From Cyanomargarita calcarea GSE-NOS-MK-12-04C (GTDB lineage: Bacteria > Cyanobacteriota > Cyanobacteriia > Cyanobacteriales > Nostocaceae): a stretch of DNA of 64,000 bases. The stretch is taken from positions 1-64,000 of the forward strand of contig JAHHGZ010000025.1 of assembly GCA_019359595.1 (NCBI GenBank), given 5' to 3'. Position 1 is the first letter of the stretch; every line of letters starts with the position of its first letter. The position numbers and the translations under genes were made by a program. Of this stretch, positions 1 to 6,155 are shown one piece after another. Under the pieces are notes generated by a model that saw nothing but the letters and a program-made list of their open reading frames with translations, did not search any database and was not told the origin of the DNA.

Positions 1-67
1 GCTATCTAAGCAACGCCATCCCTTCAAACAACAACAACACACACATCACTAATTAAGGACTAAAACC

Positions 68-412
68 ATGTTGAACAAATCTCATATCTTCGGTGTACTA
101 GCTGCAGTTATAGCGATCGCTCCTGGTACTGCATTTGCCGGACAAGTTCAAAACAACCAACAAAACATCAACCAAAGTGGTGCTGCTGTTGGTAGTGGAA
201 ACACTGTTGTCAACCAAGCTAACCAACAAGCCGTCCAAAATGCATTGAAAATTAAGAAAGGTCATCGTTACGGTTCCGGTGGCTACCAAGGACAACGCTC
301 CGGTCAAAATATCGGTCAAAGTGGTGCTGCTGTTGGTGAAGGTAACACTGTTGTAAACACCGCAACCCAACGTGCCGTACAAAACGCTACTCAATTAAAT
401 CGCGGTCGCTAG
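68..412 (+). CDS. Secreted Q/N/G-rich repeat protein, copy 1
   Basis: A 114-residue protein with a clear Sec signal peptide (MLNKSHIFGVLAAVIAIA, cleavage after AFA near residue 24). The mature part has two copies of a roughly 27-residue repeat of the form QNIxQSGAAxGxGNTVVN followed by a Q-rich tail, at about residues 29-58 and 78-110. A basic Gly/Tyr linker separates them. Alternating polar and hydrophobic residues with regular Q, N and G recall curlin-type or beta-solenoid repeats, but the curlin consensus is not matched exactly. It is likely exported and may self-assemble at the cell surface; that is inference. AAGGAC sits about 10 bases before ATG. This copy differs from copies 2 and 3 in the linker and C-terminus, ending LNRGR. 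Confidence 0.8.
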   Translation: MLNKSHIFGVLAAVIAIAPGTAFAGQVQNNQQNINQSGAAVGSGNTVVNQANQQAVQNALKIKKGHRYGSGGYQGQRSGQNIGQSGAAVGEGNTVVNTATQRAVQNATQLNRGR

Positions 413-503
413 TTAGACGAGCTTCTCAATTGCGTTGCTATCTAAGCAACGCCATCCCTTCAAACAACAACAACACACACATCACTAATTAAGGACTAAA
501 ACC

Positions 504-860
504 ATGTTGAACAAATCTCATATCTTCGGTGTACTAGCTGCAGTTATAGCGATCGCTCCTGGTGCTGCATTTGCCGGACAACAAAACAACGATCAAAACA
601 TTTACCAAAGTGGTGCTGCTGTTGGTAGTGGAAACACTGTTGTCAACCAAGCTAACCAACAAGCCGTCCAAAATGCATTGAATATCAACAAGGGTGGTCA
701 TCATTACGGTTCCGGTGGTTATCAAGGACAACGCTCCGGTCAAAATATTGGTCAAAGTGGTGCTGCTATCGGTGAAGGTAACACTGTTGTGAACACTGCA
801 ACCCAACGTGCAAGGCAAAATGCTACTGAATTAAATCGCGGTCACCGCTATCACTATTAA
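504..860 (+). CDS. Secreted Q/N/G-rich repeat protein, copy 2
   Basis: A 118-residue paralogue of the preceding gene with the same signal peptide and the same two internal repeats, but with an insertion of His/Gly residues in the linker (GGHHYGSGGY) and a C-terminal RGHRYHY extension. Its upstream region duplicates that of copy 1 almost base for base, including the AATTAAGGACTAAAACC leader, so the two are likely controlled alike. It could be a structural subunit of an extracellular polymer; I do not recognise a named family. Confidence 0.8.
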   Translation: MLNKSHIFGVLAAVIAIAPGAAFAGQQNNDQNIYQSGAAVGSGNTVVNQANQQAVQNALNINKGGHHYGSGGYQGQRSGQNIGQSGAAIGEGNTVVNTATQRARQNATELNRGHRYHY

Positions 861-928
861 TTCTCAATTGTGAAGAATCCAAGCAACGCCATCCATTCAA
901 ACAACAAAACTAATTAAGGACTAAAACC

Positions 929-1285
929 ATGTTGAAAAAATCTCATATCTTCGGTGTACTAGCTGCAGTTGTAGCGATCGCTCCTGGTGCTGCATTTGCC
1001 GGACAACAAAACAACGATCAAAACATTTACCAAAGTGGTGCTGCTGTTGGTAGTGGAAACACTGTTGTCAACCAAGCTAACCAACAAGCCGTCCAAAATG
1101 CATTGAATATCAACAAGGGTGGTCATCATTACGGTTCCGGTGGTTATCAAGGACAACGCTCCGGTCAAAATATTGGTCAAAGTGGTGCTGCTATCGGTGA
1201 AGGTAACACTGTTGTGAACACTGCAACCCAACGTGCAAGGCAAAATGCTACTGAATTAAATCGCGGTCACCGCTATCACTACTAA
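929..1285 (+). CDS. Secreted Q/N/G-rich repeat protein, copy 3
   Basis: A 118-residue protein identical to copy 2 except for Asn3 to Lys and Ile15 to Val, both within the signal peptide, so the mature proteins are the same. The upstream spacer is shorter than in copies 1 and 2 because the CAACACACACATCA stretch is missing, so expression may differ. A large hairpin at 1301-1339 follows and probably ends the transcript. Identical mature proteins suggest selection for dosage, as for an abundant structural protein (inference). Confidence 0.8.
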   Translation: MLKKSHIFGVLAAVVAIAPGAAFAGQQNNDQNIYQSGAAVGSGNTVVNQANQQAVQNALNINKGGHHYGSGGYQGQRSGQNIGQSGAAIGEGNTVVNTATQRARQNATELNRGHRYHY

Positions 1286-1300
1286 TTTGTCTAATTCCAG

Positions 1301-1339
1301 ATTTTAGAAGGGGATGGTGGTCATCCCCACATCTAAAAT
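1301..1339 (+). terminator. Hairpin after the tandem array
   Basis: The arms ATTTTAGA (1301-1308) and TCTAAAAT (1332-1339) enclose GGGGATG (1310-1316) and CATCCCC (1322-1328) with a short loop. There is no long T tract after it, so it could be a terminator or an RNA-stabilising hairpin. Confidence 0.5.
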
Positions 1340-1460
1340 CCAGTAAACCTATCTAATTAATTAGCGTCGATTAACCTTGGAAAATAGCCAAACCTTCCTT
1401 TGGAAAACCAACGCCATACCAAAACCAACAACAAACACACAACTAATCAGGTCGAAAAAG

Positions 1461-1817
1461 ATGTTGAAGAAAACTTACACCTTTGCTTTATTAGCTGCTG
1501 CCCTGATTATAACTCCCAATGCAGCATTTGCCCAGTCTTATCAAAACAGCACGCAAAACATTGAGCAAAATGCAGTAGCAGAAGGTAATGGCAATGTGGT
1601 TGTAAATACCGCCAGTCAGCAAAGCTTTCAGAATAGAAGAAATTTGGGTAATCGCAGATTCTGCAGTGGAATTAACAACTCTCAAGCACAATCATCTGCC
1701 CAAAATATGATTCAGAATGCTGTAGCGATTGGTGATAACAACACCGTTGTCAACACTGGCAGCCAGGTAAACGTCCAAAAACTCCTGAGTAGAGCTAACA
1801 GCTATTACTGCTACTGA
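1461..1817 (+). CDS. Secreted Q/N-rich repeat protein, divergent paralogue
   Basis: The reading frame is open from 1377, but the likely start is the ATG at 1461, which gives a proper signal peptide (MLKKTYTFALLAAALI, ending AAFA). The mature protein has two repeats, QNIEQNAVAEGNGNVVVN and QNMIQNAVAIGDNNTVVN, clearly homologous to those of the three upstream copies, with QN replacing QSG. The linker contains one Cys, and another lies near the C-terminus (YYCY), unlike the upstream copies. It is a fourth, older member of the cluster and probably an alternative or capping subunit if the family forms fibres (inference). Confidence 0.75.
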   Translation: MLKKTYTFALLAAALIITPNAAFAQSYQNSTQNIEQNAVAEGNGNVVVNTASQQSFQNRRNLGNRRFCSGINNSQAQSSAQNMIQNAVAIGDNNTVVNTGSQVNVQKLLSRANSYYCY

Positions 1818-2040
1818 GTCTGGTTTGATGAATGAAGGAAGAAGGAATTAAACCCACCACCTCTACCGAACCCGTTTGAGAAGAAGACTTCTTCCTTCTT
1901 CCTTCTTACTTCTTCCTTCGTTGAATGTGTCTGTTAGCAGTGCCGTGGTGTGCTGTGTGGGGAGTTGACACAGGTTTTACCGATTTCCTGGCTAATAAAG
2001 CAAATAAAAAGGTTTTTTATATCTCAAGAGGGATGAAGCC

Positions 2041-2388
2041 ATGCCTGCTAAACAATCCATTTCATTGATCGCGCTTTCTTTGTTAATTGCATTACCTGCC
2101 GGCTTTGCTACCGCAGGTGATATCGATATTCAGAATGGCGACGTTCGGGTAACAGTTACTCAAGACAGTGGTGTCAGGATTAACTCTATTCCCACCAGAC
2201 CAACCATTATTCGTACTCGCAGTACACCGATTTATCGACAAAGTCGGACAACACAGCGTTCTCGGATTTTGAAGGCTCCACAACCCCTGCGATGTAATGG
2301 CAGAACTATCACCCAACATAGCAATCAAGGCTACGGGAATAATTCTAACAGTACATACAGTTCAACAACAACAAGTTCGTGTCAATAA
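2041..2388 (+). CDS. Small secreted protein of unknown function
   Basis: A 115-residue protein with a signal peptide (hydrophobic ISLIALSLLIALPAG, cleavage after TAG near residue 26). The mature start, DIDIQNGDVRVTVTQDSG, looks like beta-strand. It is followed by an Arg/Thr/Ser-rich stretch and a Ser/Thr/Asn-rich tail with two Cys. It lacks the QSGAA repeat of the upstream genes but lies in the same run of secreted proteins on the same strand. A GAGGGATGAAGCC purine-rich stretch precedes the ATG. I do not recognise a family. Confidence 0.65.
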   Translation: MPAKQSISLIALSLLIALPAGFATAGDIDIQNGDVRVTVTQDSGVRINSIPTRPTIIRTRSTPIYRQSRTTQRSRILKAPQPLRCNGRTITQHSNQGYGNNSNSTYSSTTTSSCQ

Positions 2389-2427
2389 TTCAACCCAACT
2401 ATTTATCACAGAATGAGGATACCAACC

Positions 2428-2829
2428 ATGAAGTTCAGATTACTTTCCGCTTTCTTATTATCAGTTTCTGCTATATCTCCTTTCTTAGTGCCTTCCCTAA
2501 CTCCAAAAGCACAAGCACTTGGCTGCGTGGCCACTAGTGTTGGAGTACAAGTAGATATCAGTGGCTCCAGAACTGGAGGACGCCAAACCAATAACGCAAG
2601 TCAAAAGATTGGTGAAGATTGTGTTGGGAACAGCAGCACTAATACTTCAACCCAAGTTCATAAGGGATCTAATTCTGCAAATCAAACCCGAACCAGCAAT
2701 CAACAGCTTGGTCGCGGACGCTCAGGTCGTGCTGGTGTTGGCGATGTTAGGACTAATATTCACATTCCAGTCAAGGTATACAACCCAGCGGCTGATCGCA
2801 ATTTCATGAAGAATGTTCCTGGTAGATAA
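2428..2829 (+). CDS. Small secreted Asn/Ser/Thr-rich protein
   Basis: The first ATG of the frame is at 2413, but that ATGAGGAT overlaps a ribosome-binding-like AGGA, so the second ATG (2428, MKFRLLSAFLLSVSA) is preferred. The signal peptide is cleaved near KAQA-LG. The mature protein has two Cys and a Q/N/T-rich section (NASQKIGEDCVGNSSTN, ANQTRTSNQQ) that echoes the spacing of the neighbouring repeat proteins, then a basic Gly/Arg stretch. It follows the previous gene after 39 bases, so the two are probably co-transcribed. A good terminator follows at 2865. Confidence 0.65.
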   Translation: MKFRLLSAFLLSVSAISPFLVPSLTPKAQALGCVATSVGVQVDISGSRTGGRQTNNASQKIGEDCVGNSSTNTSTQVHKGSNSANQTRTSNQQLGRGRSGRAGVGDVRTNIHIPVKVYNPAADRNFMKNVPGR

Positions 2830-2864
2830 AGTAGTTTATCTATCAGTAGTTTCAGTTACGAACT

Positions 2865-2885
2865 ATCCCCCTTTAGGGGGATTTT
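2865..2885 (+). terminator. Rho-independent-type terminator
   Basis: ATCCCCC and GGGGGAT pair perfectly around a TTTA loop and are followed by TTT. The hairpin lies 36 bases after the stop codon of the upstream secreted-protein gene. Confidence 0.7.
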
Positions 2886-3152
2886 AAACTTAGACTAAGT
2901 TCCGTTCACCCTGGTTGTCTCACTTGACCTAAATTGCTCCAGATGACCGGAACTTGATATTAGTATAATTAACCGCGTAAAACTATAGTGAATTAAAAAT
3001 TTAAATTAAAATATAGAGGAGGGCAGCAAGTAGCGCAAAGGAAGCCAGAGTTTTTGTTTAATACCTTAATTCAATTTGCTATCAGTTAAAAAAAATTATC
3101 TTTATTCTCTGCGTCCTCTGTGTTCTATGTGCTTCTTTACTCAGGTATAGTT

Positions 3153-3659
3153 ATGAAAAAAATAGTGTTTTTTGCCTGCTGCATGGCTTTGATTGTTTCT
3201 GTAGGTGCAGCTGTTGCTCAAAATTTTTCCCAAAATAGCCAAAGTTCTTTTGTCCATTCAGAAAGCAATTCCGAGAGTGGTGATGATATGAATAGTTTTT
3301 CGAGTTTTTCTAGCCAACAGTCGTCAAGTAATTCATCTAGCTATCAACAAAGCACACTGAGTTTGAGTGCTGAAAATCTCAATCAACCTCATATCTTGAG
3401 CATTAATAGTTCAGGCAATCAGTTGAATGGTGAGATTACTGTCAATGGCAGAGCGATCAAACGTTTTACAAACAATAAAGTTGAGATTGATTTGTCACCT
3501 TATCTATCAGTAGGGGAGCAAAAAGTGCAAATTTCCGCTCGCTATGCCCCAGTGGGTTCTGCGGTAAATGTGCAAGTTTCCGGACCGGGCACTAATGTTA
3601 TTCAACAAACCAATGGTGATGGTGTTTTAAATTCTACTATCAATCTAAGCGTACATTAG
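3153..3659 (+). CDS. Secreted Ser/Gln-rich protein with C-terminal beta domain
   Basis: The frame opens at 3120, but the ATG at 3153 gives a standard signal peptide (MKKIVFFACCMALIVSVGAAVAQ). The mature protein of about 145 residues begins with a low-complexity Ser/Gln/Asn section (roughly residues 23-75). A compact domain with alternating hydrophobic residues follows (about 80-168: HILSINSSGNQLNGEITVNG, EIDLSPYLSVGEQKVQIS), which looks like an Ig-like or other beta sandwich. It may be a surface or matrix protein with a flexible spacer. It closes the run of secreted proteins. No family is recognised. Confidence 0.7.
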   Translation: MKKIVFFACCMALIVSVGAAVAQNFSQNSQSSFVHSESNSESGDDMNSFSSFSSQQSSSNSSSYQQSTLSLSAENLNQPHILSINSSGNQLNGEITVNGRAIKRFTNNKVEIDLSPYLSVGEQKVQISARYAPVGSAVNVQVSGPGTNVIQQTNGDGVLNSTINLSVH

Positions 3660-3972: not shown

Positions 3973-4452
3973 CTAACTAGTTGTGGTCGCTTGCAACTGA
4001 CTTTCTAGGTTAGCACGCACCCACAATTCCGCAACTGACCAAATCCAAATTCTATTGGAGGCTTCAGCAAAATCATCATGTTTGTGAGTAACTATCGCAT
4101 CCAGCCCTCGATCGCTGGCACAAATTAGTTCTACTGCAGATTCAAAATCTTTAATGGGTGATGTGCGTGCTTGCTGCATGATTGCCTGATCCACAGAGCA
4201 AATATGAATTTTCTCTTGCAACCAATCTACTATCATTTGTCCAATCTTATTATTTCGCAAACGGCTGGTATAAGCGTATATTTTTTGCCAACCGACATCT
4301 GTGACGTACATTTTAATTGAAGGATGTACTCTATCCAATAATTGCCCCACATCTCCTTCTTTACCATTTCTGTTGAGTAAAGCTTCTAATATTAAATCAG
4401 CATCAATTAAAATCCCGATCACTTTCAACCCCCCGATTGAGCGAATAATCAA
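3973..4452 (-). CDS. PIN-domain protein (VapC-like ribonuclease)
   Basis: A 159-residue protein with the PIN fold layout: LIDADLILEALL near the N-terminus supplies the first metal-binding Asp, a mid-protein Glu lies in DFESAVELICASDRGLDAI, and IVTHKHDDFAEA supplies the C-terminal acidic residues. PIN proteins are metal-dependent single-strand RNases, commonly the toxin of VapBC modules. No antitoxin-like ORF is visible within 400 bases on either side, so this looks solitary: an orphan toxin, a housekeeping PIN protein, or one with a distant partner. The start could also be at an internal residue nearer IGILIDADL. Confidence 0.7.
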   Translation of the reverse strand: MIIRSIGGLKVIGILIDADLILEALLNRNGKEGDVGQLLDRVHPSIKMYVTDVGWQKIYAYTSRLRNNKIGQMIVDWLQEKIHICSVDQAIMQQARTSPIKDFESAVELICASDRGLDAIVTHKHDDFAEASNRIWIWSVAELWVRANLESQLQATTTS

Positions 4453-4865: not shown

Positions 4866-6155
4866 TTAGCTTTTTAGCTTGAGTAGCAGATAATACAAAT
4901 GTCCGTTGGTGACTGTGACACCAGCGCGATCGCCTGCGATTTTTCCAGTACCTAAAAAGTAATCCACCCTACCTGAGCCTTTAATTGCACCTCCGGCATC
5001 TTGGTCAAGAACATAACGACTAACTAAACGATGTTGGACATTTCCATTCTTCTCGACAAAAGGAAAAGAAGCGCGAATCAAAGCTAAAGCTCCCGGTGGC
5101 ATAAGGGATTTATCTGTAGCAATTGAACGTTCTGCTGTTAGTGGTACATTAATAGAACCACCAGCGGGTGCGCCGTGTTTTTCTTCAAAGAAAACAAAAC
5201 TTGGATCGCGGGGAATATAAACATTTAATTCTTCTGGATATTTGTGAAAATAATCAAGGATGATTGGCATGGTCATTCCTAAAAGCGGTAATTTCCCATC
5301 GTTTGCCAATTCTCTGCCGATGCTTTTGTAGTCTTGAGCTATATTACCGGCGTAACCGACTGTAGTTTGGGTACCATCGGTAAGTTGGAGTACCGCTGAA
5401 CCTTGAATTTGAACCATGAATGGTTCTAAGCGATCGCGAAACCAAAATAACTCCAATCCCCGTAATTTTCCTTTTTTTCCTTGCAAACCATCAGCCCCTT
5501 CTAAGTCTAGACGGGTGGGATGGGGTCTTTGCCATTTATCTAAGTCGGGTGGTACGCGGTACATTGGATAGCGATACTCGGCAGTGGGGACTCGACTCGC
5601 GGTATACTGAGGCTCATAATAGGCGGTAAATAACACCCTACCTTTGCCATTACTTCCCACTGATTGGTAAAGGACAAACTCTTGGGCGATCGCCTGATTA
5701 AATTCCCCTGCTGATTTGGATTTGAGCAGTAGTTGGCGGAATCTTTGTAAACTGTTAATTACGCGATCGCGTGTTACCTGAACCACGGGATAATTTTGAT
5801 AATCAGATGAAGCCTTTTCAGTTTGTAGATACTGGAGACTTTGAGCAATAGAAGTTAAAAGCGCCTTTTTATCTGCACCACGAACACCTTCACCCCACAA
5901 TTGCTTGTCCAAACAAGAGGTATCACCCTCGCAGCAAGTTATGGGTGACCTTTGGACAAGTACTGGTGATTTTTTATCTTGACTGGGGACTGATTTCGGT
6001 AATTGCCACTTTTTTACCTGACATTCCTGCTTACTGAGCGGTCTATACCCCAAACGCTGCATCGGTACTGCAATAATTGTCAAAGCAACTGGTAAACCGA
6101 TGGCGATCGCCCAAAAAGGTTTATCCGACGCTAATGCAAGAAATGTCTTTTTCAT
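4866..6155 (-). CDS. mltA: Membrane-bound lytic murein transglycosylase A
   Basis: A 429-residue protein with an N-terminal hydrophobic segment (about residues 15-32) that anchors it or acts as a signal. The MltA domain contains VLFTAYYEPQYTASR and YRYPMYRVP, then GYAGNIAQDYKSIGREL. The C-terminal 3D domain reads YVLDQDAGGAIKGSGRVDYF followed by GTGKIAGDRAG, with the conserved acidic residues of the family, including the Asp of the DYF motif. It cleaves glycan strands of peptidoglycan to 1,6-anhydromuropeptides in the periplasm. The length exceeds E. coli MltA because of an N-terminal extension typical of cyanobacterial homologues. It is transcribed alone. Confidence 0.9.
   Translation of the reverse strand: MKKTFLALASDKPFWAIAIGLPVALTIIAVPMQRLGYRPLSKQECQVKKWQLPKSVPSQDKKSPVLVQRSPITCCEGDTSCLDKQLWGEGVRGADKKALLTSIAQSLQYLQTEKASSDYQNYPVVQVTRDRVINSLQRFRQLLLKSKSAGEFNQAIAQEFVLYQSVGSNGKGRVLFTAYYEPQYTASRVPTAEYRYPMYRVPPDLDKWQRPHPTRLDLEGADGLQGKKGKLRGLELFWFRDRLEPFMVQIQGSAVLQLTDGTQTTVGYAGNIAQDYKSIGRELANDGKLPLLGMTMPIILDYFHKYPEELNVYIPRDPSFVFFEEKHGAPAGGSINVPLTAERSIATDKSLMPPGALALIRASFPFVEKNGNVQHRLVSRYVLDQDAGGAIKGSGRVDYFLGTGKIAGDRAGVTVTNGHLYYLLLKLKS

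Follow-up and report, generated by a model that had tools for sequence, protein, structure and literature searches.

The first 3.66 kb of the Cyanomargarita calcarea DNA analysed here (the window, the first 64 kb of contig C52, 119,222 nt) carry seven head-to-tail open reading frames (ORFs) on the + strand, all with signal-peptide-like starts, as an earlier note made from the sequence alone had stated. The first four encode copies of a small repeat protein, termed the array protein below, and the other three encode the secreted proteins p5, p6 and p7 (Table 1). This block probably encodes an extracellular fibre built of stacked beta-arches. We describe a conserved sequence pattern and a conserved gene block, and propose from these a fold, a mode of assembly, a route of export and a role.

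The mature array proteins are 90–94 residues long, each with a pair of units some 35 residues in length. At the DNA level, every one of the first four genes contains an 83-nt repeat twice, which makes eight copies in all. The mature parts of copies 2 and 3 are identical and that of copy 1 is 89% identical to both, in keeping with the three near-identical tandem copies noted earlier; copy 4 has diverged (45% identity to copy 1, calculated on the precursor). The motif QNIxQSGAAxGxGNTVVN, described in the earlier note as occurring twice in all four proteins, is exact in copies 1–3 and only loosely kept in copy 4. Its observation of Q/N-rich repeats was borne out by composition: Gln and Asn together reach 30–33% in the mature array proteins; in the window's 27 open stretches of 250 residues or more, the median is 9.2% and the highest value 18.4%. 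The repeat is conserved in other genomes, which contradicts the lack of conservation that had been allowed for. None of the seven window proteins matched Pfam or NCBIfam above the curated cut-off.

The alignment analysed comprises 109 mature array proteins, with an effective number of about 26 at 62% identity. Positions 1, 3, ..., 15 and 20, 22, ..., 34 of unit 1, and the same positions plus 49 in unit 2 (inward positions), are generally more conserved and polar, and the positions between them (outward positions) are variable. The lag-2 autocorrelation of the column entropy is 0.59 in both units, a value attained in none and in one, respectively, of 20000 column permutations. Charged residues, His included, account for 0.5% of the 3484 inward letters versus 17.8% of the 3052 outward letters, and 77.7% of the inward face is Gln, Asn, Ser or Thr. 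Two Gln residues, Q32 and Q81, are near-invariant (108/109 each). Cys residues come as two per protein (71 proteins) or none (38 proteins), and the Cys positions, 45 and 91, covary. Disordered Q/N-rich secreted proteins, in which a period of two would reflect composition and common descent and no fold, are a rather unlikely explanation for these data: the entropy alternation lies far above that of permuted columns, Gln is position-specific at Q32 and Q81, charge is kept off one face only, and the rule of two Cys or none holds in 109/109 proteins.

The two units of a protein match each other, predominantly on the inward face. Identity between units exceeds expectation with a mean kappa of 0.59 at inward versus 0.13 at outward positions (p = 2e-6). 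Pairs of the type i,i+49 represent 35% of the top 60 covarying pairs versus 1.1% of all pairs, and inward covariation at offset 49 amounts to 0.305, compared with 0.03–0.06 at nearby offsets. An example is the position pair 11/60, which is QQ in 88/109 proteins, II in 21/109 and mixed in none. The offset-49 peak persists in subsets of the alignment, namely the terminal (p5-proximal) copies (0.160), the body copies (0.247) and the alignment without the Ile-type rows (0.279). Within a unit, covariation between facing positions is highest at a positional sum of 35 in unit 1; in unit 2 sums of 35 (0.150) and 37 (0.154) are about equal. The signal at sum 35 stems from inward pairs (0.121 and 0.150 in the two units), with outward pairs contributing only 0.015 and 0.022, and without the Ile-type rows the facing peak is still at 35. 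This register fits side chains meeting across an arch better than it fits a hairpin. In addition, an AlphaFold model of copy 3, calculated with the 109-row alignment, shows strands at residues 5–16, 21–37, 54–65 and 70–86, the four arms expected of two arches. Period-2 conservation, an uncharged polar face, unit matching and the facing register together fit a two-rung stack of beta-arches.

Several observations weigh against this interpretation. The AlphaFold model is weak (mean predicted local distance difference test score, pLDDT, 58.8; predicted template modelling score, pTM, 0.33), and its comparison with PDB folds returned no match, a result of little weight given the weak model. There are only two arches per subunit, and copies 1–3 of this genome are without the Cys pair. 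Outward positions also show a peak at offset 49, a weaker one (0.158), so that some homogenisation between units is likely. The facing register shifts in subsets: among terminal rows the unit 1 peak is at sum 39 (0.088 vs 0.078 at 35) with unit 2 at 35, and among body rows the peaks are at 37 and 43 in unit 1 (0.095 each vs 0.092 at 35) and at 37 in unit 2 (0.112 vs 0.097 at 35). With an effective sequence number of about 26, much of the covariation may represent shared ancestry. In an independent-pairs analysis, in which the 109 alignment rows corresponded to 113 tree rows (identical copies are placed repeatedly), the sign tests were underpowered and no position reached 0.05. Summed over positions, inward changes went the same way in 23.3, opposite ways in 2.3 and one-sidedly in 36.3 pairs, and outward changes in 25.6, 8.9 and 69.4 pairs, respectively, a modest difference. 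This weak phylogenetically independent support for covariation and the low AlphaFold confidence are also what speaks for disorder. Internal gene conversion was considered as the cause of the matching residues. Judged by codon agreement between units (inward 0.577 vs 0.536 expected; outward 0.538 vs 0.442 expected), it does not account for the stronger matching of inward positions, and some gene conversion between units is possible.

According to our model, each unit would form a strand-turn-strand arch with its Gln, Asn, Ser and Thr side chains facing inward, and unit 2 would be stacked in register on unit 1 to give two rungs. The open ends would then permit head-to-tail stacking of subunits into a fibre. 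Where two Cys are present, one in the linker and one at the C-terminus, they would form a disulfide. The proteins p5–p7 may aid assembly or anchoring, and the outer membrane would be crossed by some route other than CsgG in this genome. The linker (alignment positions 35–49) is strongly basic and Gly/Tyr-rich, with 22.7% Lys, Arg and His versus 1.3% Asp and Glu, and is a candidate contact for acidic polysaccharide; the basic linkers would serve to bind acidic matrix or sheath polysaccharide.

The same sequence facts fit small secreted beta-solenoids that do not polymerise, being soluble or matrix-bound and, for instance, polysaccharide-binding or protective against desiccation with a flat polar face. 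Basic linkers and only two rungs per protein would suit such proteins, as would the beta-sandwich of p7, a type also found in sugar-binding proteins (at middling Z only). We regard this explanation as improbable, although worth keeping in view. A two-rung arch without a visible capping segment would have open edges favouring stacking, the number of copies and their homogenisation within genomes point to a bulk structural product, and the conserved face is almost uncharged, unlike a usual binding face.

The fibre model gains detail from the relation between copy type and position. When 149 array proteins were placed on a tree, the label 'p5-adjacent' needed 5 changes, versus a mean of 30.7 with shuffled labels. 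One tree group of 40 rows (support 96/98) contains 28 of the 34 p5-adjacent copies; the remaining six are sole copies of the body type at Calothrix-type loci. The p5-adjacent copy is mostly a distinct type common to several genera; body copies cluster by genome or close genus and are often near-identical. This pattern, as read from the proteins, is what a single minor and numerous major subunits would be expected to produce. The major subunit would be the multi-copy body proteins; the type found singly beside p5 would be a minor subunit, for example a nucleator or a cap. Copies 1–3 of the window are found together, beside Fischerella-type body copies, within the group holding most terminal copies, and the split between types is therefore less clean here.

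The earlier note had likened the proteins to curlin and beta-solenoids. This likeness holds in principle, with respect to the period of two, the polar core face, the matching of units and the facing register. In the curli literature, the minimal curlin repeat is given as X6-Q-X-G-X2-N-X10 and curli are said to contain a major and a minor subunit (PMC3521004); curlin repeats of about 23 residues are described as strand-arc-strand arches with N-x-psi-x-psi-x-Q strands (PMC10192328). By these descriptions, the system resembles curli in its secreted repeat subunits, its putative strand-arc-strand arches with a facing core and its presumed major and minor subunits (PMC10192328, PMC3521004), and in core Gln and Asn residues alternating with variable outward ones (PMC10192328). 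It differs in having units of about 35 residues, two per protein, with eight mostly polar core residues per strand, versus about 23 residues in curlin (PMC10192328).

The array proteins are nevertheless not curli. The curlin motif Q.G..N was present in 1/109 array proteins (shuffle mean 19.3), as compared with five sites each in E. coli CsgA and CsgB, and the two-strand curlin pattern in 0/109. A single curlin-like strand pattern was found in 45/109 and QX10Q in 27/109, both counts being without a shuffled control. The family PF07012 (Curlin_rpt) gave no hit in the genome itself and in 0/118 genomes of its family (own included), with the E. coli control positive, and was not among the 25 families listed of the 34 that the 109 array proteins matched in Pfam at E ≤ 1. 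Comparison of the array profile with CsgA/CsgB by hhalign gave a probability of 0.04 and one aligned column, with only two sequences on the curlin side. A CsgG-like channel, which the earlier note had suggested looking for, was not encountered in this genome by a search for PF03783, nor in 16 of the 18 other block-bearing genomes; the remaining two have CsgG away from the block, and the control was positive in 4/14 named genomes. A CsgG-domain protein is encoded in the genomes of loci L147 and L148, in one of them megabases off on the same contig and in the other on another contig. Membership in curli was ruled out by the motif, Pfam, profile and channel tests.

FapC-type repeats carry the motif GVN.AA. 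This motif occurred in 0/109 array proteins; FapF and the fap operon were not searched for. FapC is described as stacking three Greek-key repeats in one monomer, with flexible linkers and conserved Asn/Gln (PMC12822426). The layout of the array proteins, with few imperfect repeats joined by linkers and conserved Asn/Gln, is closer to that of Pseudomonas FapC/FapB than to curli, the difference being three Greek-key repeats there and two simple, predicted arches here (PMC12822426). Among cyanobacteria, EbfG1–4 of Synechococcus elongatus are secreted biofilm matrix proteins, three of which are reported to form amyloid, and their secretion involves PteB, a transporter of the C39 peptidase family (PMC9981879). 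The block shares with EbfG the character of a small gene set for secreted cyanobacterial matrix proteins, and is set apart from it, by description and not by sequence, by Sec-type signals, a tandem array and the arch repeat (PMC9981879). From the sequences, then, these proteins most likely form fibres and work like curli or FapC in principle without being curli.

Searched singly against Pfam, the 109 array proteins gave a best E of 0.006 with at most six members per family (among the 25 listed of 34 families with E ≤ 1), and a profile built from all of them found no relative in the PDB (best E 0.41). By the tools used, the core pattern is matched to no known fibre family, and word-match searching of the open-licence literature retrieved no description of this protein family.

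A first scan of genome contigs with the four-copy alignment showed no relative. The four-copy profile matched 26/100 genomes, comprising the genome itself, 25/59 others of its GTDB family and 0/40 from other families of the order. Across the phylum, the 109-row profile (E ≤ 1e-5) matched 7/386 genomes, own included, all of the same GTDB family; in the genomes sampled, the block was not found outside this one family. In a first set of 21 loci (the window and 20 around array matches), clustering recovered p6 in 21/21 and array proteins in 19/21, and more sensitive profiles detected array proteins in the remaining two as well.

Further loci were fetched through a helix-turn-helix (HTH) regulator, using the best 80 of 90 relatives. 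These 80 named loci belong to heterocystous cyanobacteria, e.g. Scytonema, Brasilonema, Calothrix, Rivularia, Fischerella, Nostoc and Anabaena. The gene order in relatives is HTH regulator (divergent), array (n copies), p5, p6, p7, PIN and MltA. A flanking marker is present on the side of the array at 51 loci: 26 of these hold the complete set of four parts, six hold the array while one or two other parts went undetected, and 19 hold none; in these 19 empty sites, 124–1598 bp separate the regulator from the marker. Among 14 loci with a long flank and no marker, one has all parts and 13 none, and in these genomes the block could lie elsewhere. The other 15 loci are cut by a contig end (eight without any part, six with array copies only, one with three parts). 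In 0/80 loci was p5, p6 or p7 seen without the array. The parts of the block are nearly always found, or missing, together. In a quickly built MltA tree covering 40 loci (block present in 29, absent in 11), presence maps as one change (support 93), so that a single loss or gain suffices. Since presence follows descent, any link to sheath type, which would rest on general background about the sheaths of block-bearing cyanobacteria, is confounded by descent.

Individual loci depart from this order. Locus L050 (2881–9529) contains array, p5 and p6 genes as two adjoining sets, one without a detected p5, which suggests a duplicated block. L044 (7782–9860) holds two array-like genes with p5 and p6, and L045 (8932–10194) one array-like gene with p6; in both, an HTH regulator was not detected nearby.

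The ratio of non-synonymous to synonymous substitutions (dN/dS) was below 1 in 13/13 computed pairs of array genes, one of them without any amino-acid change; a fourteenth pair was excluded for a frame error. The highest value, 0.92, belongs to a within-genome pair, and the other 12 pairs are at or below 0.49. The pair at 0.92, the tandem arrangement and the rapid divergence between genera are features that secreted effectors or antimicrobial peptides encoded by a diversified tandem array would show, and copy 1 gave a match to Moricin, an antimicrobial peptide, at chance level (E 0.19; 12 bits vs a cut-off of 27.6), which is not relied on. We consider this explanation very improbable: copies within a genome are mostly homogenised and in places identical, 12 of 13 pairs fall in the low dN/dS range with one free of amino-acid change, and Pfam and NCBIfam offer no match above cut-off; no search was made for immunity genes.

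The usual descriptions of cyanobacterial sheaths are of polysaccharide, and little is said in the literature searched about a protein part of the sheath in branching or tapering heterocystous forms. Going beyond a fibre as such, it is conceivable, though we put it forward only tentatively, that the block represents a new class of bacterial functional amyloid. Its members would be two-rung beta-arches with a polar zipper of eight residues per strand and, in most members, a disulfide between linker and tail. A tandem array of major subunits, one minor subunit and three helpers would be exported independently of CsgG and, among sheathed heterocystous forms, make up the protein scaffold of the firm sheath or of a holdfast matrix. 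Relative to the Nostoc/Anabaena/Nodularia group, a single loss or gain would have taken place. A conserved block laid out like that of an amyloid fibre and the empty sites of close relatives together allow a direct test of what a protein fibre does. If true, bacterial functional amyloids, of which few are known, would gain an independent solution, and the core-residue requirements of an amyloid arch could be studied in a compact system with diverse sequences.

Table 1. Features at the start of the window (positions in nt).
Feature	Positions	Strand	Remarks
Inter-copy leader, very start of contig	1..67	+	67/67 bases identical to 437–503
Array protein copy 1, body type, two putative arch units, no Cys	68..412	+	
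Array protein copy 2, body type	504..860	+	
Array protein copy 3, body type, same mature sequence as copy 2	929..1285	+	Structure predicted
Array protein copy 4, p5-proximal (terminal) copy, two Cys	1461..1817	+	
p5, secreted, 115 residues, two conserved Cys	2041..2388	+	Homologues in conserved order
p6, secreted, 133 residues, Q/N alternation, invariant Cys and Gln	2428..2829	+	Homologue in 21/21 clustered loci, window included
p7, secreted, disordered S/Q-rich N-terminus and beta-sandwich domain (residues 65–168)	3153..3659	+	
PIN-domain gene, flanking marker outside the block	3973..4452	-	PF13470; synteny
MltA murein transglycosylase gene, flanking marker outside the block	4866..6155	-	PF03562 and PF06725; synteny

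The signal peptides are of Sec type as judged by eye, with no predictor run. For copy 4, p6 and p7 the start given is the ATG preceding the signal peptide; the listed ORFs begin earlier.

In the family alignment p6 shows a two-part pattern, Cys33...Gln41...QxNxVxQ and Cys65...Gln76...QxRxSxQ. It is possibly a diverged arch protein, judging from this pattern; hhalign gave no link between p6 and the array protein. AlphaFold predicted a disordered N-terminus for p7 and a confident beta-sandwich, with ten-residue pLDDT means of 84–96 from residue 71. Foldseek returned no match for p7 at E ≤ 0.001, the best rows being NAD kinases (E 0.011), and the p7 profile found no sequence relative in the PDB. 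With VIA-align, matches were middling only, the best being a complex containing MmpS5 (Z 7.9, root mean square deviation 2.9, 89 residues aligned), others being GH2 and carbohydrate-binding sandwiches. Because these matches are too general, no function was read from the fold. Matches of p7 below cut-off, GH2_N (E 0.0022) and the amyloid assembly protein TapA (E 0.068), are not relied on.

The array starts at the contig edge. Its first bases are those of the leader separating copies 1 and 2 and the window begins at contig base 1; the array of this genome is therefore probably cut by the assembly (7.92 Mb, 82 contigs). The earlier note had proposed looking upstream for more copies. None were seen, a search of the genome with copy 3 (E ≤ 10) returning these four only, and further copies upstream of the contig edge are likely. 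Several relatives' contigs likewise stop on the array side of the regulator, no more than about 1 kb from it (e.g. L059, L071 and L073), so that array size is underestimated in draft genomes. What relatives do show upstream of the array, with one example of each flanking gene scanned for domains, is an HTH_3 regulator and a polysaccharide deacetylase. Neither had a close match in the assembly of this genome (best identities 37% and 31%); they may be either absent or unassembled. Downstream in the window, the same domain scan identified PIN, MltA and CemA genes.

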